Source: Methylobacterium sp. CB376 (lineage in GTDB: Bacteria; Pseudomonadota; Alphaproteobacteria; Rhizobiales; Beijerinckiaceae). Taken from it: a stretch of DNA of 64,000 nt. Made by a program: the position numbers and the translations under genes. Below the pieces are notes generated by a model. It was not told the origin of the DNA. It did not search any database and saw only the letters and a list, made by a program, of their open reading frames with translations. Positions 11,545 through 27,230 of this stretch are shown here, piece after piece. Location: the NCBI RefSeq assembly GCF_029714205.1, contig NZ_CP121648.1, positions 1,922,001-1,986,000 on the forward strand, read 5' to 3'. Within the stretch, counting starts at the first letter, position 1; every line of letters starts with the position of its first letter.

Positions 11545-14500
11545 ATGACCGCGGTCCCGCACGTGCTCGCCAACGGCGACTTCGCACAGACCTGGAACGA
11601 TCCCGGCCTGATCACCGCCGACGACGACTGGTCCGGGGTGCCGAGCATCGTGGGCTATCGCGGCGACGACATCACGAGCGTGGTCGGGGCCGACCCGCAG
11701 GCGCTCACGGGCGACGGCGCCGTCACGGCCGACGTCAACGCCAACCGGACCAACCCGAACGGCCTCACCGCCGGCGGCGTCGCCGAATTCGCCCTCGCCG
11801 ACCCGGCGGTCGCGCTGCAGGGCTCGGGCGCCGCGGACGCCCCGAGCCTCGTCCTGTTCCTCGACGCGACCGGCCGCCGCGACGTGACCGTGTCCTACCG
11901 CCTGCGGGACCTGGAGGACGGGGCGGACAACGCCGTCCAGGCGGTGGCGCTGCAGTACCGGATCGGACCGGCGGGCGCCTGGACCAACGTGCCGGCCGCC
12001 TTCGTGGCGGATGCCACCGCGGGGCCGGGCAGTTCCGGCCCGGATATCCGCGTGCGGGCGGTGCTGCCGGCGGCCGCCGACGGCCAGGCCGGGCTCCAGG
12101 TCCGCATCATCACGGCGAACGCCGCCGGCAGCGACGAGTGGGTCGGGGTCGACGATATCGCGGTGACGAGCCAAGCCGCGGGCCCGGTGCCGGCGGCGCC
12201 GACGCTCCTGGACCCGGCTCCCTCGCTGGCGGGCGCCGCCGACGCCCCGGTCGGGACCGGCAGCCTGGTCGTGACCCGGCTCGGCGCGATCGAGGCCTCC
12301 GGCACCAACGGCGCCGAGGGCGGCGCGGAGGTCGTCTCCTTCGATCCCGCGACCGCGCAGCTCTTCACGCTCAACGCCCGCGACGGGCGGATCGACGTGA
12401 CGCGGATCGGCGCGGACGGGGCGCTCACACGCACCGGCAGCATCGCGCTCGGCGACCTGCCCGGCTTCGGCACGGCCAACACCGTCGCGGTGAGGAACGG
12501 CGTCGTGGCGGTCGGCTACCAGAACGCCGATCCGCGCCAGAACGGCGCCGTCGCGTTCTTCGACGCGCGCAGCCTCGCCGCCCTGCGCGCGCCGCTCACG
12601 GTCGGCAACCAGCCCGACCAGCTCAGCTTCAATCAGGACGGCACGAAGATCGTGGTCGCCAATGAGGGCGAGCGGGCGACGGTCGCCGGCACGGCGGTCA
12701 ATCCGAGCGGCTCGGTCTCGCTCGTCGACCTCTCGGCCGGCCTCGCCGGCGCCTCCGTGGCGACCTACGATTTCGCCAGCCTCGCCGGCCAGGAGGCGGC
12801 CCTGCGCGCCGCGGGAATGCGCCTGCCCCCGGGCGCGGGCGCCGTCGCGGATATCGAGCCCGAATACACGGCGATCAGCGGCACCACCGCCTACGTCACC
12901 CTTCAGGAGGCCAACACCGTCGCGGTCTTCGACATCGCCGGCGCCGCGCCGGTGCTGAAGGCCCTGAAGCCGCTCGGCGCCATCGACCGGTCCCTGCCCG
13001 GCAACGAACTCGACGCCTCCGACGACGGCGCGCCGACCCCGGCCGCGATCCGCATCCGCAGCGAGCCCGTGTTCGGCCTGCCGATGCCGGACGCGATCGC
13101 GACCTTCACGGCGCCGGACGGCCGGGTCTACGTCGTCACCGCCAACGAGGGCGACGCGCGCAGCGACGACAGCGACGTGGCGCGCCTCGCGACGCGCAGC
13201 CTCGACCCGACCGCCTTTCCCGATACCGCGACCCTGAAGCAGAAGTCCGAACTCGGCCGCCTCAACGTCTCGACCATCGACGGCGATACCGACGGGGACG
13301 GCGACCTCGACCGGATCTACACGTTCGGCGGGCGCGGCCTCTCGATCTTCCGCCAGGAGGCGGACGGCACCATCACCAAGGTCCGCGAGACCGGCGGCGA
13401 ATTCGAGAAGATCATCGCGCGGGACTTCCCCGCCCTCTTCAACCAGAACCAGGGCAACGGGCAGGTCGACGACCGCTCGGACGACAAGGGTCCGGAGCCC
13501 GAGGGCGTGACGATCGGCACGGTCGCGGGCCGCACCTACGCCTTCGTGGGGCTGGAGCGGGTCGGGGGCGTGATGGTCTACGACGTCACGGTGCCGGCCG
13601 AGGCGGCCTTCGTGGCCTACCAGCCGCCCGCCGCGGGCCGCACGGACGCGGGGCCCGAAGTGCTGACCTTCATCGCGGCCGCCGACAGCCCGACCGGCCA
13701 GGCCCTGCTCGTGACCGCCAACGAGGTCGGCAACACCACGACCGTCTACCAGCTCGCCCCGCCGCAGACCGCGATCTCCCGGATCCAGGCCAGCGGCGAC
13801 GCCTCGCCGCTGGCCGGCCGGACGGTCACCACCTCGGGCATCGTCACCGCGGTCGCCGGCAACGGCTTCTACCTGCAGGATCCGACCGGCGACGGCGACG
13901 CCGCCACCTCGGACGGGATCTTCGTCTTCACGGGCGGCCAGCCGCCTGCGGCGGTCGGCGACGCCGTCGAGGTCAGCGGCGAGGTCCGGGAATTCGTCCC
14001 CGCGCGGGCGGCGCGCGGCGCGCTCCCGGTCACCGAGATCGCCGGCTCGGTCACGGTGACGGTCCGCTCCAGCGGCAACGCCCTGCCGGAGGCCGTGCGG
14101 ATCGGCGGCCCGGGCGGGCTCGCGCCGCCGACCGAGGACCTCGCGGCGGGCAGCGCCTTCTGGGAGAGCCTGGAGGGCATGCGCGCCACCGTGGCGGCCC
14201 CCCTCGCCACCGGCCCGACCAACGCCTTCGGCGAGATCTTCGCGGTGGCGGACGGGCGCGCGGGCGCCACCGGCCTCAACCCGGACGGCAACCTGCTGAT
14301 CCGCGGCGGCGAGTCGGTCCTCGGCGCGGCCAACAGCCGGGGCGGCGACTTCAACCCCGAGCGGATCCGCCTCGATCCCGGTCTCGGCGTCACCCTGCCG
14401 AAGGTGAATACGGGGGCGCGGCTCGGCGACGTCACCGGCATCGTGACTTACAGCTTCGGCAGTTACGAGGTCGTGGCGACGAGCCCCGTCACCGTGACGG

Positions 14501-16932
14501 CGCCGAGCCCGCGGGTGAAGACCGGCGGCAGGCTGGCGGGCGACGCGGATCACCTGCTGGTGGCGAGCTACAATGCCGAGAATCTCGACCCGACGGACGG
14601 GGCGGCCCGCTTCGCCGCCATCGCCTCCGAGGTGCTGGGCAGGCTCAACACGCCCGACGTGATCGCCCTGCAGGAGGTGCAGGACGATGACGGGCCGGGC
14701 AACACCGCCTCGACCGTCACCTCGGCGGGGCGCACGTTCCGGCTCGTCGTCGAGGCGATCCGGGCGGCGGGCGGGCCGGACTACGCCTTCATCGACAACC
14801 CGTATATCGGCGACGACACCAACGGCGGCGAGCCGGGCGGCAACATCCGCACGGCCTTCCTGTACCGGACCGACCGGGTGAGCCTCGCACCGAACGCGGT
14901 GCGCAGCATCGCGCCCGATGGCAGCCCGATCACCGCGGGCCCTTCCGCCGACCAGCAGACCAACCCCGACAATCCCTTCTACGCGTCGCGGCCGCCGCTC
15001 GCCGCGGATTTCGTCTTCAACGACGAGACCGTCACGGTGGTGAGCAACCACTTCACCTCGAAGGGCGGCAGCGGCGCGCTGTTCGGCTCCGAGCAGCCGC
15101 CCTTCGACGCGGGTCAGCTGGCGCGGGCCGCCCAGGCCCAGGCGGTCAACAGCTTCGTGGACGGGATCCTGGCCGCCAGCCCGCGGGCGCGGGTCCTGGT
15201 GGCGGGCGACCTCAACGATTTCGGCTTCGAGGAGCCGCTCAGCGTGTTGAAGGGCGAGGCGACGCTCGCCGGCTACACGCGGGCCGGAACCGGCGTCACC
15301 TTCACCCGCGGCGGCACCGCCGTGCTCTCCGACCTGCAGGACACGCTGCCGGAGGGCCAGCGCTACGACTACGTCTTCGAGGGCAATTCCGAGACCCTCG
15401 ACCACGTGCTGGTGACGGACGCGCTCGCGGCCGGTGTGCAGTTCGAGCCCGTGCACATCAACGCGGACTTCTTCGACCAGACCAGCGATCACGACCCGCT
15501 GCTGGCGCGCTTGGCCATCCCGGTCGTGGGACGCCTGCTCACCGGCACCGCGGCGGGTGACACGCTGACCGGCGGGGCGGGCGAGGACACGATCCTGGGC
15601 GGGGCAGGCAACGACTTCGCGTCGGGTCGGTCCGGGAACGACAGCGTGAGCGGCGAGGCCGGCGACGACCTCGTCTTCGGCGACGAGGGCGACGACGTCG
15701 TCGACGGCGGCGAGGACAACGACCGCGTCTCCGGCGGCGCCGGCGCCGACCGGGTCTTCGGCTCGGCCGGCAGCGACCTCGTCTTCGGCGAGCAGGGCGA
15801 CGACGTCGTGGGCGCCGGCGAGGGCAACGACTTCGCGTCGGGCGGCGCCGGGAATGACAGCGTGAGCGGCGAGGCCGGCGACGATTACGTGTTCGGCGAT
15901 GAGGGCGACGACCAGCTCTCCGGCGGCGAGGGCCGCGACAGCCTCTACGGCGGGCTGGGCAACGACGTCCTCACCGGGGATGCGGGCCACGACGTGCTGC
16001 TCGGCGAGCAGGACGACGACCAGCTCATCGGCGGCGACGGGGACGATTCCCTCGACGGCGGCGACGGCGCCGACCTCCTGTGCGGCAATGACGGCGCGGA
16101 CGGTCTCTGGGGCGGGGCCGGGAAGGACCAGCTCTACGGCGGGGCCGGCGCCGACACGCTCGACGGCGGCGACGGGGCCGACACCCTGTTCGGCAACGAG
16201 GGCGCGGACTGGATGGCCGGTCAGGCCGGGGACGACGCGCTGGTCGGCGGCGACGGGAGCGACTCGCTGTTCGGCGGCGACGGGAATGACTGGCTGGTCG
16301 GCGAGGCCGGGGACGACGCGCTGGTCGGCGGCCAGGGGAGCGACTCGCTGTTCGGCGGCGTCGGGAACGACTGGCTCGCCGGCGAGGGTGGCGACGACCT
16401 GCTGATCGGTGGCGAGGGGAACGACTCGCTGTTCGGCGGCGCCGGCGCGGATTGGCTCGAGGGCCAGGCCGGGGACGACGCGCTGGTCGGCGGCGAGGGC
16501 GACGACGTGCTGCGCGGCGGCGAGGGCAATGACTGGCTCGACGGCGAGGCCGGGAACGACGTGCTGGTGGGCGGCGCGGGCAATGACGGGCTGCGCGGCG
16601 GCGACGGGGCCGACTGGCTCGTGGGCGAGGCGGGATCCGACACGCTGAGCGGCGGGGCGGGCGACGACGTGCTGTTCGGCGGGGCCGGTTCGGACACGGT
16701 CCAGTACGCGAGCGGCGACGGGCGGGACGTGGTGCGCGACTTCGTGACGGGCGGGGCGGAGCGGGACGTGATCGCGTTCGGCCCCGGCCTGTTCGGCTCC
16801 TTCGCGGCCGTGCAGGCGGCGACGCAGCAGGTGGGGGCGGACGCGGTGATCACCGCCGGGGTGGGCGAGTCGCTGACCCTGCAGAACATCCAGGCCTCGA
16901 GCCTCTCCGCCCGGAACTTCACCTTCGCCTGA
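11545..16932 (+). CDS. Giant RTX protein: choice-of-anchor I domain plus ExeM/NucH-like nuclease
   Basis: 1795 residues. After an N-terminal beta domain (about 1-215) comes a choice-of-anchor I/beta-propeller-like region (about 240-740), an OB-fold-like segment of the type found in ExeM/NucH extracellular nucleases (about 745-985), and an endonuclease/exonuclease/phosphatase domain (about 1000-1320) with its motifs ALQEVQDDD, VVSNHFTSKGG, VAGDLNDFG and SDHDPLLAR. RTX repeats run from about 1332 to 1715, then a C-terminal segment like those of the other two RTX proteins. Probable role: type I-secreted extracellular DNase. ATG 11545 follows a CGGAG ribosome-binding site. The first half of its RTX block matches the gene at 23417 and the second half is almost base-identical to the gene at 4709. 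Confidence 0.88.
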   Translation: MTAVPHVLANGDFAQTWNDPGLITADDDWSGVPSIVGYRGDDITSVVGADPQALTGDGAVTADVNANRTNPNGLTAGGVAEFALADPAVALQGSGAADAPSLVLFLDATGRRDVTVSYRLRDLEDGADNAVQAVALQYRIGPAGAWTNVPAAFVADATAGPGSSGPDIRVRAVLPAAADGQAGLQVRIITANAAGSDEWVGVDDIAVTSQAAGPVPAAPTLLDPAPSLAGAADAPVGTGSLVVTRLGAIEASGTNGAEGGAEVVSFDPATAQLFTLNARDGRIDVTRIGADGALTRTGSIALGDLPGFGTANTVAVRNGVVAVGYQNADPRQNGAVAFFDARSLAALRAPLTVGNQPDQLSFNQDGTKIVVANEGERATVAGTAVNPSGSVSLVDLSAGLAGASVATYDFASLAGQEAALRAAGMRLPPGAGAVADIEPEYTAISGTTAYVTLQEANTVAVFDIAGAAPVLKALKPLGAIDRSLPGNELDASDDGAPTPAAIRIRSEPVFGLPMPDAIATFTAPDGRVYVVTANEGDARSDDSDVARLATRSLDPTAFPDTATLKQKSELGRLNVSTIDGDTDGDGDLDRIYTFGGRGLSIFRQEADGTITKVRETGGEFEKIIARDFPALFNQNQGNGQVDDRSDDKGPEPEGVTIGTVAGRTYAFVGLERVGGVMVYDVTVPAEAAFVAYQPPAAGRTDAGPEVLTFIAAADSPTGQALLVTANEVGNTTTVYQLAPPQTAISRIQASGDASPLAGRTVTTSGIVTAVAGNGFYLQDPTGDGDAATSDGIFVFTGGQPPAAVGDAVEVSGEVREFVPARAARGALPVTEIAGSVTVTVRSSGNALPEAVRIGGPGGLAPPTEDLAAGSAFWESLEGMRATVAAPLATGPTNAFGEIFAVADGRAGATGLNPDGNLLIRGGESVLGAANSRGGDFNPERIRLDPGLGVTLPKVNTGARLGDVTGIVTYSFGSYEVVATSPVTVTAPSPRVKTGGRLAGDADHLLVASYNAENLDPTDGAARFAAIASEVLGRLNTPDVIALQEVQDDDGPGNTASTVTSAGRTFRLVVEAIRAAGGPDYAFIDNPYIGDDTNGGEPGGNIRTAFLYRTDRVSLAPNAVRSIAPDGSPITAGPSADQQTNPDNPFYASRPPLAADFVFNDETVTVVSNHFTSKGGSGALFGSEQPPFDAGQLARAAQAQAVNSFVDGILAASPRARVLVAGDLNDFGFEEPLSVLKGEATLAGYTRAGTGVTFTRGGTAVLSDLQDTLPEGQRYDYVFEGNSETLDHVLVTDALAAGVQFEPVHINADFFDQTSDHDPLLARLAIPVVGRLLTGTAAGDTLTGGAGEDTILGGAGNDFASGRSGNDSVSGEAGDDLVFGDEGDDVVDGGEDNDRVSGGAGADRVFGSAGSDLVFGEQGDDVVGAGEGNDFASGGAGNDSVSGEAGDDYVFGDEGDDQLSGGEGRDSLYGGLGNDVLTGDAGHDVLLGEQDDDQLIGGDGDDSLDGGDGADLLCGNDGADGLWGGAGKDQLYGGAGADTLDGGDGADTLFGNEGADWMAGQAGDDALVGGDGSDSLFGGDGNDWLVGEAGDDALVGGQGSDSLFGGVGNDWLAGEGGDDLLIGGEGNDSLFGGAGADWLEGQAGDDALVGGEGDDVLRGGEGNDWLDGEAGNDVLVGGAGNDGLRGGDGADWLVGEAGSDTLSGGAGDDVLFGGAGSDTVQYASGDGRDVVRDFVTGGAERDVIAFGPGLFGSFAAVQAATQQVGADAVITAGVGESLTLQNIQASSLSARNFTFA

Positions 16933-17068: not shown

Positions 17069-17869
17069 TCACGGGAGCCGCGTCCGTCGGAGTTCGGACG
17101 GCGTGACGCCGAACAGTCGCTTGAACCTGTGCGTGAACCGTGACTGCGAGAGATACCCGCAACGCTCCGCGATGCGTCCGATCGGCTCCATGGTCGTTTG
17201 CACCAGGTGCAGGCCGTGGCCCAGTCTCGTCCTCTCCACCACGGACCTGATGCCCGTGTCCTCCGCCCTGATCCGCCTGCGCAGCGTCGTCGGGCCGACG
17301 GCGAGCCGCGCGGCGAGGCGCTCGACAGTCCACTGACCCGCCACGTCTTCGGACACGATGTCGTGGATTCGATGGCTCAGACTCCGACGGGCGGCAAGGC
17401 CGCCCACCTGGCGGTGACCAGAGAGATAAAGCAGCTGGAGGATTTCCTGCCTGCGAAAATGCCACAGTTCGGGCTGCGCGAAAGCGGACCATTCGATGTA
17501 TTGTTGGAGTGTCTTGGCCAGGGTGCAGCCGATCTCCCCTTGAACCAGGGTCGGCTCTTGCGGCGGGCTCTCCTTGAACTGAGCGAAATCGGCGTATTCA
17601 AACTCGATGAGCAGGGCGAGGTACTCCTCGCTCGGAATGTTTCTCATGTCTATTTTGGTGGTGTTGGGCAGAAACAGAAAATTCTGCGCTGGACACACGA
17701 TGTCGTCCGCTTTTCCAAGTTTCTTGACGCCCGCCATGACGCAGATCAGGAGCGGCTTGCTGATCGGGGCATTCAGGATGCGCTGCTCCTTGAGGGATGT
17801 GTAGACCGAGAATGGCCGCGGCGTTGCGGCCGTCGCATTCCGCTTGATGGAGAGGATGAGGTCCCGCAG
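17069..17869 (-). CDS. AraC-family transcriptional regulator with unusual start
   Basis: C-terminal AraC DNA-binding domain with two HTH motifs (WTVERLAARLAVGPTTLRRR and IGRIAERCGYLSQSRFTHRF) behind an N-terminal sensing domain. The first in-frame ATG (17737) would cut into that domain: the frame stays open upstream and reads RPFSVYTSLKEQRILNAPIS, typical AraC N-terminal sequence, back to a stop at 17873-17875. The only upstream start-like codon is CTG at 17867-17869. A GTG at 17876 lies in another frame, so an N-terminal frameshift is also possible. The gene is less GC-rich than its neighbours and lies downstream of the multidomain ligase/acyltransferase on the same strand, making it the candidate local regulator. 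Confidence 0.8.
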   Translation of the reverse strand: MRDLILSIKRNATAATPRPFSVYTSLKEQRILNAPISKPLLICVMAGVKKLGKADDIVCPAQNFLFLPNTTKIDMRNIPSEEYLALLIEFEYADFAQFKESPPQEPTLVQGEIGCTLAKTLQQYIEWSAFAQPELWHFRRQEILQLLYLSGHRQVGGLAARRSLSHRIHDIVSEDVAGQWTVERLAARLAVGPTTLRRRIRAEDTGIRSVVERTRLGHGLHLVQTTMEPIGRIAERCGYLSQSRFTHRFKRLFGVTPSELRRTRLP

Positions 17870-17991: not shown

Positions 17992-20900
17992 TCAGGCCGC
18001 GCGCAGTGCCGGCATCGTCGGGCGCGGCGTCTCGCTCCTCGCCGCATCGACGATCATCGCGATCTCGCGGATGGTCTGCGCCGCGATGAGATCCGATGGC
18101 GATAGCGTCAGCTTCTGCTTGGCTGTCGAGAACTCGGCCTCGAGCGTCGCGGTGAACTGGACGACGCTCAGCGACGCGAGGCCACATTCCTGGAGGCTCC
18201 ACTCCGGCTTGGCCGCCAAGCCCGACGTCCGGCTCACCATGTCGAGGATCGTCGCGAGCGTGTCCCTCTCCGGCCGCCCGGCCGCGCTCTCACCCGTCAG
18301 AAGCCGCAGAGACGCGCCGAATCCCCGTCGGATCACGCTCTCGAGAGGTTGGACCAGCTTGCCGAAGATCACCACCAGGCCGACAACATAGAAGTATTCA
18401 AACCATTGAACAGGGACCGGCTGTGGACTGAACCAGTAAAACTCCTTCCGATAGCTCCACCAGTTCCACCACTCTCCGTGCCGCGTGAGAGCAAAATACC
18501 ACTGGCCGACCATTTGATGGAACAGGAAGCAGGCGTAGGCCGTCGGAGCGAGGGTCTGGGAGAGGGGATCGGATCGCAGGATCCGCGCGGTGAGTCCCCG
18601 TCCCGTGCTCAGGGCAAAGAGCCAGAGCAAGGTCACGGGAGCCCACACTCTGGAGTTGATCTCGTCCCAGGTCCGATTGACGATGCCGGGATCCATGAAG
18701 CTGTCCGCCGCGTCGGGGCGCAGAAAGAAGGTTTCGAGGGACGCGCGCGACAGTTCGGGCCCGTGCGGGATATAGCCCTGCATCACGTGCGCTGCGCTGT
18801 ACAGGATGATGAGCGCCGTGATCGCGTCAGCGACGTAGCCCCATATTACGGAGTGTCGCTGCTCGTGGGGGCGAACGGCGTCGTACAAGAAAGCGACGCA
18901 GATCTCTCCCACAAAGTAGAGCATCCAGAATGGGGCAAACAGATAGAATCCTAGCATGATGAGATTATCTGTCCCAGCCATTTGGATCTGGGATGCGTCC
19001 GGGCTGATCTTTGTGCCGGTCGATTGATCGAAGAACGGATAGCCGATGGCGTCGGTCGCGTATCCGTACCAGAAGGCGAGCAGAATGAACAGATTGATCC
19101 CAACCACGACGCCTGCAATCAGCAGCAAATGTCGTGTCATTCCCCGTCTGACGTAAAATAGATTGTAAATGAAGGGGAATATGATAAGACATTGAAAATA
19201 CATCGATATGAACCATAAGTAGAAACCCAGGAACCACGACGCGGTCCACAGGGGTGTCGCCGAGAGCCCCAGGCCGTAGATCAGCAGAGTGGAGGAGAAG
19301 TTGGCGATCCAGGAACTCTGCAGCAGCGGCGTGCCTTCGCAGAAGGTCCGGCTGACATCCCCGGATAGGGCGTTCCAGTGGAACACGCTCGAGAAGGTTC
19401 CCGGCTGGCAGCTCGGCAGCAGATTGACGACCGCAAGCAGGAGAGCGAGCGCGTAGAGGGGATACATCGCCAATATTCGGGCGCGGACGAACGCGGCCTT
19501 CCGCTGGATGGGGGCTGGCATGGACCCCGCCAGCGAGAAGCCCGCGACGACGAAGAAGGCGTGCACATGCCAGGGAAACTGGCGAAGGTTGGCGAAAGCC
19601 CCCCACGATTGGTCGGAGCCGATGTGCATGAACATGACGTAGCATGCCAGCAGGAAGCGCAGGCCGGACAGCGTCGACCAATCGACCTTGGGTGCGGCGC
19701 CGGTGCGGCTGCTCCCGTCCGATCGTCGGACGCCGCCACCTGCCTCGCTCGTCAAAGGCCGGGCCGGCTCGCTATCCGACACGCCCAACGCATCTGCGAG
19801 GCCGTTTCGGATGTATTTCTGGGTTGTCGTTCTCGGAAGTTGATGCTCCTCGACGAGCTTCCATCGGGTGGGATATTTGAACACGGCCAGCGCGTTGCTT
19901 CTGAGAAATTCCCGCAATTCCCGGATCGCTTCGGCCTGGGTGATGTTGCCGGGCGCCGAGGAGGCCAGGACCACGGCGCAGCCGACTTCTTCTCCGTAGA
20001 GGTCCGATGGAACCGGAAAGCAGACCGCGGTGCCGACCCATGGATGCCGGGACAGGACCGCCTCGACATCGAACGGCGATACTTGCTCTCCGCCCCGCTT
20101 GATGAGTTCCTTGATTCGACCTCTCAGAGCGAGCGTTCCGTCCGGGTCCATCTCGCCGAGATCGCCTGTCAGGAGCCAGCTGCGGAGAACGTGATCCTCG
20201 TGCGAGCGCAGCAGGAAGCGGGACTGCCGGTTGGCCGGAGGGTTGTCCGAGTAGCCGGCGAACACCGTCGGGCCCGAGATCGCCACCTCTCCGGTGACGC
20301 CGAACGGGACGGGACGCAGCGTGGCGGGATCCACCACCGCCATCGAGGCGACGATCGGGACCCCGACGGAGTCGGGCTTCTGCTGCCATCCCTGGCCGGT
20401 TCTCGGCGGCTGGCAGATCGGCATCTGCTCGGACATGCTGTAGGTCGCGACCACCTCACAGCCGAACGTCGCTTCCAGCGCGGCGCGATCGGGCTCCTTC
20501 AGAGCCGCCGCCCCCGATCGGATGAAGCGAAGATGATGATCCCGCAGCTTGCCGTCCCGGTCGAGGTAAATGGCACGGTTGTCGAGCAGGTACTGGGTCG
20601 TCGCGTTGTGGATCATCGGAACGGCGGAGTACCAAGTCGGCTTGGGGTTGGAATGGAGGAGCGCTTCCACCATGCCCCGCGGCGTGTATGCCCCATCGCA
20701 GGTGATCGAGGCGCCCACCGCGATGCTGCACAGGACGGAGGCGCTGAGCCCGCCGATGTGATCGAGCGGCATGACGCTGTAAGTCACGTCGCTGGCGGTG
20801 ATCCCGAGCCCATCGGCCAGAAGGGCCGCATTGAGCACGAGATCCCTCCGGCGGAGAGGAACCAGTTTCGGAACGGACGTGCTGCCCGACGTGCGAAGCA

Positions 20901-22293
20901 GGATGCACACGGCCTCCGGCGGGTTGGCCAGAACCGGCAGGTGTTCGAATTCGCCGCGAGTCTCGGCGTACCGAAACAGGCCGGGAGATGCGGTCGATGC
21001 AACGGCGCGGTGCAGGGTGGCCTTGCCGGCGCGGACGAAGCCGTCGATCGCGGCGGATACGCCCGGCGACGAGACGCCGTCGAAGGTCACGACGTGCGCG
21101 ACGCCGCACGAGTCGAGAGCTTGGGTCGCATCCGCCTCGCTCATGCTCGGCGTGAGGGGCACGGCACAGGTTTGGGACGCGATCGACAGGAACGCAGCGG
21201 CGGCCGTGGCGCTCCCTCCCGGGGGGGCCAAGTAGGCGACGACGTCGCCAGCCCGCACGCCGATGCGGCGAAGGTCGCCGTCCCCTCCGGGCCGGCAGAA
21301 ATCGAGGAACTGGCCGTACGTCGTGTGCACGGAAGGATCGCTCCCGCGCGCCCAACGCAGGAGAGGGGCCTCGGCAGGACGCGCCGCGAGCGTGCCGGCG
21401 ATCGTGTCCGGCAAGCCATCCGTGTCGCTCCGCACGGCGGCCACTTGCACGTCGGTCGCGACCGACCGGAAACTGCGTGCGCTCGACATCCTCCAGGCGA
21501 TCGCCTCGGATCCGTCCGGCTCCCCGGATCCCGTCTCTTCACCCGCGAGGCATCGCCGCACGTTGCCGCAGATCTCGGTGTCGTCGCGCTCGGCGCGACC
21601 GATCTCGTGACCGCCCCTCAGATAGAACACGCTCGTGCGCCGCGGATCGGTGGTGAGCGCGAGCGATTCCGACCATGACTTGAGGTCGTCGTTGCGGCCG
21701 ATGAGGTGAACGCATCGCGTTCCCGAAACGACGGACGGGCCGGCGCCCAACCCGGCACGCATGCGCAGGTCGGGGAACGGGATCGAGGCGCCCGCGCACG
21801 CCGCCACCATTCCACGAGCCGGCATTCGCCCCTGAAGCCCGTGCGAGGGGTCTCGACCCGTGCGATCCCGCAAGGCGGAGATCAGCGCATCGTCGTGGGC
21901 CAAGCCATTCACCAAACTCGCGATGACCCCGCCTTGGCTGAAACCGTAGATTCCGTCGAACGGCCCATACTCCTCGATCTGCAGAAGGACCGTTTGGACG
22001 GCATCGCAGATCGCGCCGAGCAGGACGCGGCCATCGACCGCTCCAGGATGATCCGACGGGAGCCAGGAGTACCAAGGTCCACTGACCAGATCTCCGAGAT
22101 CCGCGATCCCTGGACCGGCTTCCTCGACCGCAATGGGTCCATTGACGTACAAGATATCGAAATCTGAACTCGTTACTCTTAAATTTTCCAATTGCATTCT
22201 GGTGACAGTGCTGTTGCTGCCGTAGCCATGAAGCGCCAGAACGCGCGGTCTGGAGATCGTTTTGCTATTGGAATTTCCCATCTCTGTATTCAT
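17992..22293 (-). CDS. Four-module protein: FSH-type serine hydrolase, AMP-forming ligase, acyltransferase-3, acyl carrier domain
   Basis: 1433 residues in one unbroken frame. Residues about 1-235: FSH1-type serine hydrolase with LALHGYGSN, nucleophile elbow GFSQGG (about 116), Asp in GRNDDLK and His in GGHEIG. About 290-835: AMP-forming ligase with TSGSTSVPK, ATYSMSEQ, LLTGDLGEMDPDG, KRGGEQVSP and the terminal catalytic-Lys region TTTQKYIRN. About 870-1320: multi-pass acyltransferase-3 with MFMHIGSD and FFVVAGFSLAG. About 1345-1433: carrier domain whose CGLASLSVV matches the carrier attachment motif, with Ala replacing Asp before the Ser. The logic resembles D-alanylation (activating enzyme, carrier, membrane transferase) in one chain, the hydrolase perhaps acting as a thioesterase; this is inference. 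ATG overlaps the upstream 45-codon frame. Lower GC suggests transfer. Confidence 0.85.
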   Translation of the reverse strand: MNTEMGNSNSKTISRPRVLALHGYGSNSTVTRMQLENLRVTSSDFDILYVNGPIAVEEAGPGIADLGDLVSGPWYSWLPSDHPGAVDGRVLLGAICDAVQTVLLQIEEYGPFDGIYGFSQGGVIASLVNGLAHDDALISALRDRTGRDPSHGLQGRMPARGMVAACAGASIPFPDLRMRAGLGAGPSVVSGTRCVHLIGRNDDLKSWSESLALTTDPRRTSVFYLRGGHEIGRAERDDTEICGNVRRCLAGEETGSGEPDGSEAIAWRMSSARSFRSVATDVQVAAVRSDTDGLPDTIAGTLAARPAEAPLLRWARGSDPSVHTTYGQFLDFCRPGGDGDLRRIGVRAGDVVAYLAPPGGSATAAAAFLSIASQTCAVPLTPSMSEADATQALDSCGVAHVVTFDGVSSPGVSAAIDGFVRAGKATLHRAVASTASPGLFRYAETRGEFEHLPVLANPPEAVCILLRTSGSTSVPKLVPLRRRDLVLNAALLADGLGITASDVTYSVMPLDHIGGLSASVLCSIAVGASITCDGAYTPRGMVEALLHSNPKPTWYSAVPMIHNATTQYLLDNRAIYLDRDGKLRDHHLRFIRSGAAALKEPDRAALEATFGCEVVATYSMSEQMPICQPPRTGQGWQQKPDSVGVPIVASMAVVDPATLRPVPFGVTGEVAISGPTVFAGYSDNPPANRQSRFLLRSHEDHVLRSWLLTGDLGEMDPDGTLALRGRIKELIKRGGEQVSPFDVEAVLSRHPWVGTAVCFPVPSDLYGEEVGCAVVLASSAPGNITQAEAIRELREFLRSNALAVFKYPTRWKLVEEHQLPRTTTQKYIRNGLADALGVSDSEPARPLTSEAGGGVRRSDGSSRTGAAPKVDWSTLSGLRFLLACYVMFMHIGSDQSWGAFANLRQFPWHVHAFFVVAGFSLAGSMPAPIQRKAAFVRARILAMYPLYALALLLAVVNLLPSCQPGTFSSVFHWNALSGDVSRTFCEGTPLLQSSWIANFSSTLLIYGLGLSATPLWTASWFLGFYLWFISMYFQCLIIFPFIYNLFYVRRGMTRHLLLIAGVVVGINLFILLAFWYGYATDAIGYPFFDQSTGTKISPDASQIQMAGTDNLIMLGFYLFAPFWMLYFVGEICVAFLYDAVRPHEQRHSVIWGYVADAITALIILYSAAHVMQGYIPHGPELSRASLETFFLRPDAADSFMDPGIVNRTWDEINSRVWAPVTLLWLFALSTGRGLTARILRSDPLSQTLAPTAYACFLFHQMVGQWYFALTRHGEWWNWWSYRKEFYWFSPQPVPVQWFEYFYVVGLVVIFGKLVQPLESVIRRGFGASLRLLTGESAAGRPERDTLATILDMVSRTSGLAAKPEWSLQECGLASLSVVQFTATLEAEFSTAKQKLTLSPSDLIAAQTIREIAMIVDAARSETPRPTMPALRAA

Positions 22294-22566: not shown

Positions 22567-23124
22567 TCAGTCCCGCTTGTAGAGGGCCTCGATCGTGCTC
22601 GATCCGAGCGCGTGGGCCCGCACCATGTAGCCGGTCAGGGCGCCCGACGCGCCGGCGGGCAGATCCAGCTTCTTGGAGAGCGCGTAGACGGTGAACTGAT
22701 AGCGGTGAACGCCGTGTCCCCGCGGCGGACAGGCCCCGCCGAACCCGGCAATGCCGTAATCGTTCGTGACGCTGATGCTTCCGGCCGGCGTGAGCCCCTT
22801 GCCGGTCTCCCCGATCCCCGCGGCCAAGCTCGTGACCTCCTTGGGGATGTTGACGAGTTGCCAGTGCCACCAGCCGCTGCCCGTCGGAGCGTCGGGATCG
22901 TACGCGAAGACGGCGAACGCTTCCGTCTTGGCCGGTGCTCCGCTCCACGACAGATGCGGCGAGCGGTTGCCGCCCGTGCATCCGAAGCCTTGAAACTCCT
23001 GAGCGGCGCTCATGAATGTCCCGTCCGAGATGTCGGAGCTGGTCAACTTGAACGACTCCGCCATGGCGGAATTGGAAAACAGTATACACAAGGAGAGAAT
23101 GAATGCGGCCGGACGATGCGTCAT
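22567..23124 (-). CDS. YbhB/YbcL (PEBP) family protein, exported
   Basis: 185 residues with a Sec signal peptide (hydrophobic AAFILSLCILF, then a likely cleavage after SAMA) and a phosphatidylethanolamine-binding-protein fold. Family motifs are visible: FAYDPDAPTGSGWWHW and the later CPPRGHGVHRYQFTVYAL. Members bind small ligands; bacterial functions are poorly defined. It lies upstream of the leader frames and the ligase/acyltransferase gene on the same strand, 113 bases away, with a weak hairpin (22531-22536/22543-22548) between, so it may be in the same transcript. A lipid- or phosphate-ligand role would suit the neighbour but is inference. Confidence 0.88.
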   Translation of the reverse strand: MTHRPAAFILSLCILFSNSAMAESFKLTSSDISDGTFMSAAQEFQGFGCTGGNRSPHLSWSGAPAKTEAFAVFAYDPDAPTGSGWWHWQLVNIPKEVTSLAAGIGETGKGLTPAGSISVTNDYGIAGFGGACPPRGHGVHRYQFTVYALSKKLDLPAGASGALTGYMVRAHALGSSTIEALYKRD

Positions 23125-23416
23125 GAGAATCCCCTTCTCTCGACGGCGAGAGCGCCCGCGACGTTAGGGAGTTCCGCCCGGCGGCATGAGTCGGAAAGCG
23201 CTCAAACTTTGTGCCGAAACGATCATTGTGCGGCCGGCCCTCCGCCCTCGGCCTCGGCCTCGGCCCCCGCGCGGGCATCCGCCCGCGTCCGGGAACGCCC
23301 ACGCTTCATCCCGCCGTCATGCGCTGCCGTTACGCAGCGGAAACAATCGATCGGCGGCAACCCGGCACGGGCGCATCGGCCATCCGGGCAGGCCGGCAAC
23401 GACAACGGGGGTTCGC

Positions 23417-26359
23417 ATGGCCAATTACACGCTCCAGCTCCTGCACATGTCGGACGGCGAGGGCTCGACCCTCTCGACCCAGACCGCCCCGGTGATGGGC
23501 GCGCTGATCGACCGCTTCGACGGCCAGTACGCCAACACGCTGGTGCTCGCCGGGGGCGACAATTACATCCCCGGCCCGTTCCTCACCGCGGGCGCCGACC
23601 CCGCGCTGAACCGCGTCGTCGGCGCCACGGCCCTCGGCCGGCCCGACGTCGCGATCTACAACGCCTACGGGGTCAAGGCCTCGGCCATCGGCAACCACGA
23701 ATTCGATCTCGGCTCGCAGACCGTCGCGGACGCGATCACGCCCTCGGGCGCCTGGGGCGGCGCGCGCTTCCCCTATCTCTCGGCCAATCTCGACTTCTCG
23801 GGCGACGCGGCCCTGCGCGGCCGGGCGACCGCGGGCGGGCAACCCTCCTCGGCGATCGCCGGCCGCATCGCGCCCTCGACCATCGTCACCGTCAACGGCG
23901 AGCGCATCGGCGTCGTCGGCGCCACGACCCAGCTCCTGGAGCGGATCTCCTCGCCGACCGGCACGGAGGTGAACGGATTCCCCAAGGCGGGCGAGCCCGG
24001 CGACAACCTCGTCGAGCGCGACGACATGGCGCTGCTGGCGAGCCAGCTCCAGCCGGCCATCGACGCGCTCGTCGCCCAGGGCGTCAACAAGATCGTCCTC
24101 CAGAGCCACCTCCAGCTCCTCTCGAACGAGCAGGCCCTGGCGCCGCTCCTGCGCGGGGTCGACATCATCCTGGCGGCGGGCTCGCATACCCGCCTCGGCG
24201 ACGCGACCGACGTGCAGGCCGCCTTCCCGGGCCACGACGCCACCTCCGCCGGTCCCTACCCGATCGTCACCGCGGGGGCGGACGGCGCCCCGACCATGAT
24301 CGTCGCCACCGACAGCGAATCGACCTATCTCGGCCGCCTCGTGGTCGATTTCGACGAGAACGGCCGCATCGTCCCGGGCAGCCTCAACCCGGCGGTGAGC
24401 GGCACCTACGCGGCGACCCAGGCGACCCTGCAGGCCGCCTACGGCGCCGACATCGCCCGGGCCTTCGCGCCCGGCTCGATCGGCGCCCGGGTGAGGGAGG
24501 TCACCGACGCGGTCGGCCAGGTGATCAGCACCAAGGAGCGCAACGTCTACGGCTTCACGGGCGTCTACCTGGAGGGCGACCGGGCCTTCGGGCGCGCCCA
24601 GGAGACCAATCTCGGCGACCTCTCGGCGGATGCCAACGCCGCCGCGGCGGCCCGCGCCGTCGCCAGCCAGCCCTACCTCGTCTCCCTGAAGAACGGCGGC
24701 GGCATCCTCGCCTCGATCGGCGCGGTGAGCGGGGGCAGCGGCAACGACCCGAATGCCGGCGCCAAGCTGCCGCCCCTGGCCAATGCCGAGGCCGGCAAGC
24801 CCGCCGGCGGCGTCTCGCAGCTCGACGTCGAGAACGCCCTGCGCTTCGACAACAAGCTGATGGTGTTCGACACCACCGCCCAGGGCCTCAAGAACATCCT
24901 CGAATACGGGGCCGGACTCGCGCCGGGCAACGGCGGCTATCCGCAGATCGGCGGCGTCAAGTTCTCCTACGACCCGTCGCAGCCGGCCGGGTCGAAGGTG
25001 CGCAGCATCGCGCTGACCGACGAGGCCGGCACGGTGATCGCCAAGGTGGTGGAGAACGGCGCCGTTTTACCGAACGCCCCCGCCCGCATCAGCGTCGTCT
25101 CACTGAACTTCACGGCAAATGGTGGCGACGGCTATCCGACCAAGCAGAACGGCGACAATTTCCGCTACCTGCTCGGCGACGGCCGCCTGTCGGCGCCGGT
25201 CGACAAGTCCCTCGACTTCACGGCGCCGGCCAACGTGCCGGCGAACGTGGTCGGCGAGCAGGCCGCCTTCGCGCAGTACATGCAGGCGCGCTACGGCACG
25301 GCGGACAAGCCCTACGGCGCGGTCGACACCGCGTCCTCGGAGGATCTGCGCATCCAGAACCTGAGCGTCCGCGCCGACACGGTGTTCAATTCCGGCCGTT
25401 TCGGCACCGGCGGCGGCGACAGCCTCGCGGGCACGGCCGGCACCGACGAGATCTTCGGCTATGCCGGCAATGACACCCTGGCCGGCGGTCAGGGGAACGA
25501 TTCCATGCTGGGCGGGGACGGGAGCGACCTCGTCTCGGGCCAGGACGGGGACGATGCGGTCCTGGGCGGGGCGGGCAACGACTTCGTGTCGGGCGGTGCC
25601 GGAAATGACAGCGTCAATGGCGAGGCCGGCGACGACCTCGTCTTCGGCGACGAGGGCGACGACATCGTCGACGGCGGCGCGGGCAACGACCGCGTCTACG
25701 GCGGCACCGGCGCCGACCGGGTTTTCGGCTCGGCCGGCAGCGACCTCGTGTTCGGCGAGCAGGGCAACGACTTCGTCGGGGCCGGCGAGGGCAACGACTT
25801 CGCGTCGGGCGGGGCCGGCAACGACGAGGTCCACGGCGAATCCGGCGACGATTACGTATTCGGCGACGAGGGCGACGACCAGCTCTTCGGCGGCGAGGGC
25901 CGCGACAGCCTCTATGGCGGGCTGGGCAGCGACGTCCTCGACGGGGATGCGGGCGACGACCTCCTGGCGGGCGAGCAGGGCGACGACGTGCTCATGGGCG
26001 GGGCGGGGAACGACTACCTGTCGGGCGGCCTGGGCAGCGACCAGCTCTTCGGCGGGGACGGGGCCGACCTTCTGTTCGGCAACGCGGGCAACGACTCGCT
26101 GTCGGGCGGGCGGGGCTCGGACATCTTCGCGTACGGGCGCGGGGACGGCCAGGACGTGATCCGGGACTTCACGGTGGGCGGGTCGGAGCGGGACGTGATC
26201 GCCTTCAACGGCGGGGTGTTCACGTCCTTCGCGGCCGTGCAGGCGGCGACCCAGCAGCTGGGGGCGGACGCGGTGATCACGGTGGGGGCGGGTGACAGCC
26301 TGACCCTGCAGAACGTCCAGGTCGCCAGCCTCTCCGCCCAGACCTTCACCTTCGCCTGA
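23417..26359 (+). CDS. RTX protein with 5'-nucleotidase (UshA-like) domains
   Basis: 980 residues. N-terminal metallophosphatase domain (about 5-345) with LLHMSDGEG, AGGDNY, GNHEFD, LQSHLQLL and AAGSHTR metal ligands; C-terminal 5'-nucleotidase substrate domain (about 358-655) beginning near ETNLGDLSADA; RTX nonapeptides (about 665-900) and the shared C-terminal segment ending QTFTFA. Predicted calcium-binding, type I-secreted ecto-nucleotidase. The open frame extends upstream to 23186, but ATG 23417 begins exactly where the family begins (MANYTLQLLHMSD). Upstream 23125-23416 shows no gene. It is likely functionally linked to the phosphoesterase and nuclease RTX genes. Confidence 0.9.
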   Translation: MANYTLQLLHMSDGEGSTLSTQTAPVMGALIDRFDGQYANTLVLAGGDNYIPGPFLTAGADPALNRVVGATALGRPDVAIYNAYGVKASAIGNHEFDLGSQTVADAITPSGAWGGARFPYLSANLDFSGDAALRGRATAGGQPSSAIAGRIAPSTIVTVNGERIGVVGATTQLLERISSPTGTEVNGFPKAGEPGDNLVERDDMALLASQLQPAIDALVAQGVNKIVLQSHLQLLSNEQALAPLLRGVDIILAAGSHTRLGDATDVQAAFPGHDATSAGPYPIVTAGADGAPTMIVATDSESTYLGRLVVDFDENGRIVPGSLNPAVSGTYAATQATLQAAYGADIARAFAPGSIGARVREVTDAVGQVISTKERNVYGFTGVYLEGDRAFGRAQETNLGDLSADANAAAAARAVASQPYLVSLKNGGGILASIGAVSGGSGNDPNAGAKLPPLANAEAGKPAGGVSQLDVENALRFDNKLMVFDTTAQGLKNILEYGAGLAPGNGGYPQIGGVKFSYDPSQPAGSKVRSIALTDEAGTVIAKVVENGAVLPNAPARISVVSLNFTANGGDGYPTKQNGDNFRYLLGDGRLSAPVDKSLDFTAPANVPANVVGEQAAFAQYMQARYGTADKPYGAVDTASSEDLRIQNLSVRADTVFNSGRFGTGGGDSLAGTAGTDEIFGYAGNDTLAGGQGNDSMLGGDGSDLVSGQDGDDAVLGGAGNDFVSGGAGNDSVNGEAGDDLVFGDEGDDIVDGGAGNDRVYGGTGADRVFGSAGSDLVFGEQGNDFVGAGEGNDFASGGAGNDEVHGESGDDYVFGDEGDDQLFGGEGRDSLYGGLGSDVLDGDAGDDLLAGEQGDDVLMGGAGNDYLSGGLGSDQLFGGDGADLLFGNAGNDSLSGGRGSDIFAYGRGDGQDVIRDFTVGGSERDVIAFNGGVFTSFAAVQAATQQLGADAVITVGAGDSLTLQNVQVASLSAQTFTFA

Positions 26360-26417: not shown

Positions 26418-27230
26418 ATGCCGGATCCCCATCCCCCGCTCCCGCAGATCGTCGCGAAGGCGGAGCCGAGCCTCGCCGATCCGCGGGCTGAGGCGTTCTA
26501 CGCCGAGGCGCTGGGTCAGCTCGCCGCCTCGGGGCTCCCCTTCCTGCTCGCGGGCACCTACGCGGTCAGCGCCCATACGGGCATCGCGCGGCGGACCAAG
26601 GATCTCGACGTCTTCTGCATGCCGGGCGACGCGCCGCGGATCCTCGCCCGTTGCCAGGATCTCGGCTACCGCGTCGCCATCGAGGACGAGCGCTGGCTCG
26701 GCAAGGTCTTCGAGGGCGACCTCTTCTTCGACGTCATCCACGCCTCGCCGAGCGGGGCGACGCCGGTCACGCGGGCGTGGTTCGACCACGCGAGCACGAT
26801 CGACCTCTTCGGCCAGCGCCTCGCCATCATCGGCCCGACCGAGCTCGTCTGGTCGAAGAGCTTCATCCAGCTCCGCCACCGCTTCGACGGGGCCGACGTG
26901 GCCCACACCATCCTGCGGGCGCACGACGCCATCGATTGGCACCGCCTGCTCGGCTACATGGAGATGCACTGGGAGCTGCTCCTCACCCACCTGCTGATGT
27001 TCCGCTGGATCTACCCGACGGAGCGCGACGCGGTCCCGGCCTGGCTCCTCGACGAGCTGCTCGACCGCCTCGACAAGCAGCGCCGCCTGCCGCCGCCGCA
27101 GATGAAGATCTGCCGCGGGCGGATGCTGTCGCGGGTCGATTACGCGATCGACGTGGGCGAGTGGGGCTTCGCCGATCTCGGCGGCGAGGGGGCGTGGCGG
27201 GACGGCATCACGGAGGAGACGCATGGCTGA
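26418..27230 (+). CDS. Nucleotidyltransferase-fold protein (AbiEii/MNT-like)
   Basis: 270 residues. Near residues 45-72 the sequence AGTYAVSAHTG, then RRTKDLDVF matches the helix-turn and paired-aspartate (DLD) metal site of the polymerase-beta nucleotidyltransferase fold as in AbiEii-like and hypothetical NTases. Target of nucleotidyl transfer unknown. It overlaps the following metallophosphoesterase by 8 bases, so the two are translated together. 58 bases follow the RTX nucleotidase stop with no obvious terminator between. Confidence 0.7.
   Translation: MPDPHPPLPQIVAKAEPSLADPRAEAFYAEALGQLAASGLPFLLAGTYAVSAHTGIARRTKDLDVFCMPGDAPRILARCQDLGYRVAIEDERWLGKVFEGDLFFDVIHASPSGATPVTRAWFDHASTIDLFGQRLAIIGPTELVWSKSFIQLRHRFDGADVAHTILRAHDAIDWHRLLGYMEMHWELLLTHLLMFRWIYPTERDAVPAWLLDELLDRLDKQRRLPPPQMKICRGRMLSRVDYAIDVGEWGFADLGGEGAWRDGITEETHG

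Follow-up and report, generated by a model that had tools for sequence, protein, structure and literature searches.

Can a multi-pass membrane acyltransferase be fed by a carrier domain within its own polypeptide? The question is raised by a gene of Methylobacterium sp. CB376 (genome of 7.69 Mb, 2 contigs), which lies on the minus strand of a 64,000-nucleotide stretch of contig NZ_CP121648.1 (positions 1,922,001 to 1,986,000; hereafter the window). A first-pass annotation, made from the letters alone, had proposed a single 1433-codon frame with four domains, naming no strand. This is borne out: the protein is one intact minus-strand chain with an FSH hydrolase, an AMP-forming ligase, an acyltransferase-3 (AT3) domain and a phosphopantetheine carrier, in that order. 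As to its function, we favour, with moderate confidence, an inner-membrane enzyme that relays acyl groups within a single chain.

Every reaction step of this relay, as well as its topology and direction, is what we infer from the domains and their conservation. The ligase would use ATP to activate a small carboxylic acid to the acyl-AMP and pass it to the phosphopantetheine arm of the carrier in the same chain. The loaded arm would then reach into the AT3 domain from the cytosol, replacing acyl-coenzyme A (acyl-CoA), and this domain (R879/H890) would hand the acyl group on to an acceptor that lies at the inner membrane or on its far side. The N-terminal FSH domain may serve as a cytosolic thioesterase that removes stalled or wrong acyl groups, or frees the product. 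A co-inherited periplasmic protein of the PEBP family, encoded next to the gene, could bind or convert the acceptor or the product, and a neighbouring AraC regulator would control the module. More tentatively, this may be the first carrier-fed AT3, in which CoA has been given up, a carrier of the same polypeptide is the donor, and a secreted YbhB/PEBP protein is the dedicated extracytoplasmic partner.

The four-domain chain and its family

The gene and its domains are located as follows:

17992..22293, minus strand: FSH-ligase-AT3-carrier protein, one frame of 1433 aa (open-frame translation, Pfam)
21595..22251, minus strand: FSH1 serine hydrolase domain, residues 15-233 (Pfam), with the triad S119 (codon 21937-21939), D202 and H229
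19816..21378, minus strand: AMP-forming ligase domain, residues 306-826 (Pfam), with catalytic K826
18334..19671, minus strand: AT3 membrane domain, residues ~875-1320 (Pfam, helices, hydropathy), with R879-X10-H890, R939-I-L-A942 and C962/C985
18058..18252, minus strand: C-terminal phosphopantetheine carrier, residues 1348-1412 (weak Pfam match, helices), with attachment serine S1374

The motifs GFSQGG, TSGSTSVPK, TTTQKYIRN and CGLASLSVV quoted in the first-pass annotation are all present in the minus-strand translation; frame 1 of the plus strand at 17992-22293 is interrupted by stops. All Pfam matches exceed their cut-offs: FSH1 (15-233, 69.2 bits), AMP-binding (306-681, 144.5 bits) with its C-terminal domain (743-826, 33.0 bits), Acyl_transf_3 (PF01757; 875-1280, 51.3 bits against a cut-off of 31) and PP-binding (1348-1412, 23.6 bits against 20.8), the weakest of the chain's domains. 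The hydrolase resembles the FSH family (yeast FSH1, human OVCA2) in its GFSQG elbow and Ser-Asp-His triad, reported for OVCA2 as Ser117-Asp179-His206 (PMC7077851); by sequence it matched only one solved chain, yeast 1ycd, weakly (E 8.6e-4). Unlike these relatives, it is fused to a ligase, an AT3 domain and a carrier. The carrier has its attachment serine in a GxxS motif and four helices in the predicted model.

A whole-chain search gave 250 relatives at E<=0.001 out of 7990 scored candidates. Among the best 120 of the 250, full-length relatives come from Pseudomonas, Burkholderia, Duganella/Pseudoduganella, Marinibactrum, Sinobacterium, Neptuniibacter, Microbulbifer, Serratia and Acinetobacter. 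The alga Ostreococcus tauri contributes a diverged relative, and further algal names stand among the weaker matches. Chains with these four domains in the same order thus occur in several bacterial genera, Pseudomonas, Acinetobacter, Burkholderia and Serratia among them, and, in diverged form, in algae. Since relatives down to ~30% identity retain the order and the active sites, a chance arrangement is ruled out. Database names for such proteins include 'AMP-binding protein'. When 30 members were scanned singly (Pfam, E<=0.01), all had matches to AMP-binding and FSH1, 29 to AMP-binding_C, 26 to AT3 and 17 to PP-binding. An isochorismatase domain is added in P0053-P0055 (N-terminally in P0054), and some other relatives carry long N-terminal extensions.

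One genome of each species was scanned, which yielded 55 loci, 17 of them with the whole chain or a large part of it (L009-L025; L023 is cut) and 38 matching in the ligase region alone (L026-L063); these counts are lower bounds, two exact peptide patterns having been used. The gene occurs in 2/61 genomes of the relatives search and 1/398 of a phylum draw, its own genome being included in both counts, and the family thus looks rare and patchy. It is a rare bacterial family with diverged relatives in marine algae, recurrent rather than represented by one isolated chain. Spread by plasmids was considered and rejected: a tblastn search of PLSDB found 2345 records with matches, none with a single place covering 80% of the query.

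Conservation was counted in two alignments: 64 rows (the window protein and 63 sequences selected from the 120 listed relatives, excluding fragments, P0042 and P0096) and 86 unselected rows (the window protein and every one of the 85 listed proteins with at least 1290 aa, including FSH-less and two nonribosomal peptide synthetase-like rows). In the former, the FSH triad is nearly invariant (S119 64, D202 64, H229 63), as are ligase K826 (64), AT3 H890 (64) and R879 (61), carrier S1374 (64) and the cysteines C962 and C985 (64/64 each). The wider set gives S119 81, D202 82, H229 83, K826 86, R879 80, H890 85, C962 84, C985 83 and S1374 83. The carrier serine has gaps in P0042 and P0098, the FSH histidine is absent from P0068, and Q replaces R879 in P0024, P0042, P0045 and P0046.

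One AT3 signature is lost. Known AT3 proteins are reported to share R-X10-H and RXXR motifs. The R/K-X10-H of helix 1 is present here (R879, H890), and the RXXR position at helix 3 reads R939-I-L-A942. The second position is Arg or Lys in 0/64 rows of the selected alignment, in 1/86 rows of the unselected set (P0042; another row has His), in 1/73 of a looser listing (again P0042) and in 0/13 rows without an FSH match, where the alignment is less sure. Control AT3s, drawn from 36 loci of the same genome and its order (14 not located, 1 wrong-frame match), have the second arginine in 21/21 cases where both motifs were located. P0042, the sole relative with this arginine, also lacks an alignable carrier serine; it is one case and may be cut by a contig end. 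The equivalent R74 of OafB is reported as essential and touches the 3'-phosphate of CoA in simulation (PMC9833829), and the R72A variant of OafA gave 0.07 +/- 0.02 in an O:5 signal assay in which several other variants gave ~75-121 (PMC7448272). Because a carrier-borne phosphopantetheine arm has no 3'-phosphate, the loss fits a carrier that replaces CoA. The association of a missing RXXR arginine with a putative carrier donor is a correlation, not proof.

A conserved neighbourhood and the proposed direction of transfer

Nineteen loci were compared (the window, L001, with L009-L025 and L064; L001/L012 and L021/L064 are near-identical pairs). In the window, the gene has two conserved neighbours:

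22567..23124, minus strand: PEBP / YbhB-YbcL-like protein, 185 aa, upstream of the big gene; the N-terminus looks like a signal peptide by eye
17069..17737, minus strand: AraC-family regulator, 222 aa, downstream of the big gene

The PEBP gene adjoins the big gene in 16/19 loci (not in L017, L019 and the contig-cut L023), upstream on the same strand in 14 and on the opposite strand in L021 and L064. Most of the 15 N-termini shown look like signal peptides by eye, with none apparent in L022. According to a review, YbhB/PEBP proteins rarely sit in conserved operons (PMC8793217). Distances among the PEBP proteins follow those among the big proteins (r 0.88, Mantel test with 0/5000 permutations as high) over 11 of the 16 PEBP loci, the near-duplicates L012, L014, L018 and L064 and the split L025 being excluded. 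The big gene is part of a module with a conserved, apparently secreted PEBP partner, which the first-pass annotation had not noted. An AraC regulator adjoins it in 15/19 loci, plus one weak match (L021), and a phosphopantetheinyl transferase, an enzyme that activates carriers, in 9/19, two of these being weak (L022, L023); the genome of the window protein has 3 PF01648 matches elsewhere. Less frequent neighbours are a DJ-1-like protein (7/19; NCBIfam names the L013 copy ElbB glyoxalase), a porin (4/19) and a second PEBP of different type (4/19: L016, L021, L024, L064).

With regard to topology, hydropathy was averaged across 23 aligned rows. The profile and the helices of the predicted model fit ten membrane helices if 997-1008 is re-entrant, with both soluble ends cytosolic, and positive loops alternate as expected in this arrangement. 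The loop with C962 and C985 is predicted to lie outside. The proposal in the first-pass annotation that all three steps occur in one chain gains support, at the level of inference, from the conserved active sites, the adjoining phosphopantetheinyl transferase, the predicted cytosolic ends and the lost AT3 arginine.

The most serious alternative, which we consider unlikely, dispenses with transmembrane acyl transfer: the protein would be a membrane-tethered small-molecule synthase in which the ligase and carrier load an acid and the cytosol-facing AT3 domain joins it to a small partner as an ester or amide, with LovG-like release by the FSH domain and exit of the product through a porin. LovG is an FSH-type hydrolase, and the patchy module with its own regulator, joined by a porin in a few loci, would suit such a pathway. 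LovG is reported to free a carrier-bound product (PMC4147253), and YbhB homologues occur in the tautomycin and tautomycetin gene sets (PMC8793217). However, known AT3 enzymes deliver acyl groups outward (PMC9833829, PMC9558356), and the secreted PEBP partner and the conserved cysteine pair in the predicted outside loop also point outward.

The base composition of the gene (63.9% G+C, 79.1% at third positions) lies below that of the window (72.3%) and, at third positions, below three other window frames (94.8, 95.8 and 89.1%, the last frame not being confirmed as a gene), which suggests that it was acquired. The AraC frame is shorter in the window (222 aa) than in L012 (272 aa); the first 50 residues of the L012 protein are unmatched in the window frame. 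The module is flanked by two large RTX-repeat genes, 11545-16932 (+) and 23186-26359 (+), a choice-of-anchor I domain being present in one and a 5'-nucleotidase C-terminal domain in the other. In a comparison with possible empty sites, 4/59 genomes of the genus had the gene at 26418 (the same genome, another of the same species and two others); in 18-19 kb from those two others, genes 26418 and 27223 match, and the module and both RTX genes are unmatched. A relative of the 26418-27230 gene is present as two frames (L108, L109) in genome G019.

The putative acyl donor and the activated acid

Several observations weigh against a carrier-fed relay. The PP-binding model is weak and matched just 17/30 members. 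The Ostreococcus protein P0097 has Pfam matches to FSH1 and the ligase, an AT3 match below cut-off and no carrier match, although the carrier motif GLVSVG stands in its alignment, and P0096 has neither an FSH serine nor a carrier serine at the aligned columns. In the predicted model of residues 290-1433 (mean predicted local distance difference test score, pLDDT, 84.4; predicted template modelling score, pTM, 0.55) the domain placement is uncertain. A strict hydropathy count allows 11 helices, in which case the carrier would lie outside. The agreement of PEBP and big-protein distances is expected from simple joint inheritance as well. Finally, R879, the counterpart of OafB R14, is kept in 61/64 rows and the R939 position is Arg or Lys in 64/64, so part of the CoA-binding set is retained, and loss of the second arginine could mean a different geometry of CoA binding.

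Known AT3 proteins use acyl-CoA. The last of the points above, together with a review that takes acyl-CoA rather than acyl carrier protein (ACP) to donate the acyl group in the AT3 systems it considers (PMC9558356), would suit a second alternative. Here the AT3 domain remains CoA-fed, the carrier serves the FSH and ligase half alone, in thioester editing or storage, and the fusion only co-locates the activities. We regard this as improbable, given the nearly uniform lack of the second RXXR arginine (64/64, 85/86 and 13/13 FSH-less rows) as against its presence in all 21 readable controls.

The identity of the acid leads to the ligase. Its closest kin in both sequence and fold are the oxalyl-CoA synthetases 6qjz (Lathyrus), 5ie0 (AtAAE3) and 8aff (yeast Pcs60), and this kinship makes it probable that the acid is small. 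In the fold comparison, matches to the ligase took up the whole hit list. In contrast to these enzymes, the ligase has a fused carrier, which suggests the carrier, not CoA, as its thiol acceptor. It could be imagined that oxalate is the acid activated by the ligase and that the AT3 domain attaches the oxalyl group to an acceptor, in keeping with the kinship; true oxalyl transfer is, however, about as improbable as the CoA-fed enzyme. In the tree the ligase forms its own clade on a long branch, apart from the oxalate-type ligases, and three motifs of the latter (HIHG, RSSSASL and AYGMTEQMxSNP) are altered to HIGG, RSGAAAL and TYSMSEQMPI. The differing motifs presumably line the substrate pocket and are nearly invariant within the clade, from bacteria to algae. 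The activated acid is probably not oxalate itself. In proteins of ~850 aa (P0177, P0178, P0190 and others) a related ligase shares its chain with a PF00550 carrier and a PF00975 thioesterase; a source labels some of them oxalate---CoA ligase. They differ in having no AT3 in precomputed Pfam, a hydrolase of another family and the oxalate-type motifs.

A chimeric assembly or decayed fusion, to which two split frames in Aeromonas popoffii might be taken to point, has a negligible probability: the Methylobacterium sp. WSM2598 copy (L012) is 99% identical and the gene is whole in 17/19 loci, which rules out an assembly error in the window, the active sites are conserved, the relatives contradict it, and L023 is cut by a contig end. 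In the A. popoffii locus (L025:9968-14339) the big gene is present as two adjoining frames, with the break near residues 735-747, in the ligase.

Relation to known systems and significance

In the Dlt system, to which the first-pass annotation had compared this protein, DltA is the ligase, DltC the carrier and DltB the membrane transferase, of MBOAT type. The logic is shared: an AMP-ligase loads a carrier, from which a multi-pass membrane enzyme receives the group. Here one chain is involved, its ligase is nearest to oxalyl-CoA synthetases, an FSH domain is added and a PEBP protein is the partner. A Pfam scan of the chain at E<=0.01 found Acyl_transf_3 and no MBOAT. Since the membrane domain is an AT3 and not an MBOAT, the likeness is one of logic and does not extend to common descent. 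The parts of the relay are known, and it is Dlt-like in logic without being a Dlt system.

The acyl-ACP synthetase / phospholipid acyltransferase Aas likewise has an AMP-ligase and an acyltransferase in one ACP-linked chain. It lacks an FSH domain, unlike the chain described here, and its acyltransferase is PlsC-like. One relative, P0054, matches the NCBIfam model NF006386 (Aas) below cut-off. Likeness to the AT3 / TmAT proteins (OafA, OafB, OatA) consists of the PF01757 match, R-X10-H and approximately ten membrane helices. The fusion commonly described for them is with an extracellular SGNH domain, whereas here the fused domains are a ligase and a carrier, read as inside, and the second RXXR arginine that they have is missing. 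Searches of the open-licence literature, judged from titles, abstract openings and parts of two papers, turned up no description of the FSH-ligase-AT3-carrier architecture, and FSH1 and AMP-binding are not mentioned in the part of PMC10794256 consulted. The earlier statement that no described system with this order is known is thus not contradicted within that material.

The passage of acyl groups across the membrane by AT3 enzymes, and the identity of their donor, are a live question. In the proposed relay, acid activation, carrying on a swinging arm and membrane hand-over, usually the work of several proteins, would be combined in one chain. As the donor carrier would sit in the same chain, the identity of the donor is testable by point mutants. 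The ligase clade, its motifs almost unchanged from bacteria to algae, should act on a single class of substrate that can be defined. The function of the widespread YbhB/PEBP proteins is unsettled, and the conserved neighbourhood described here provides a concrete assay for it. If the relay is real, a carrier-fed AT3 would be spread over bacteria and algae (with no PEBP seen so far in the algae), and PEBP proteins would gain a defined reaction.

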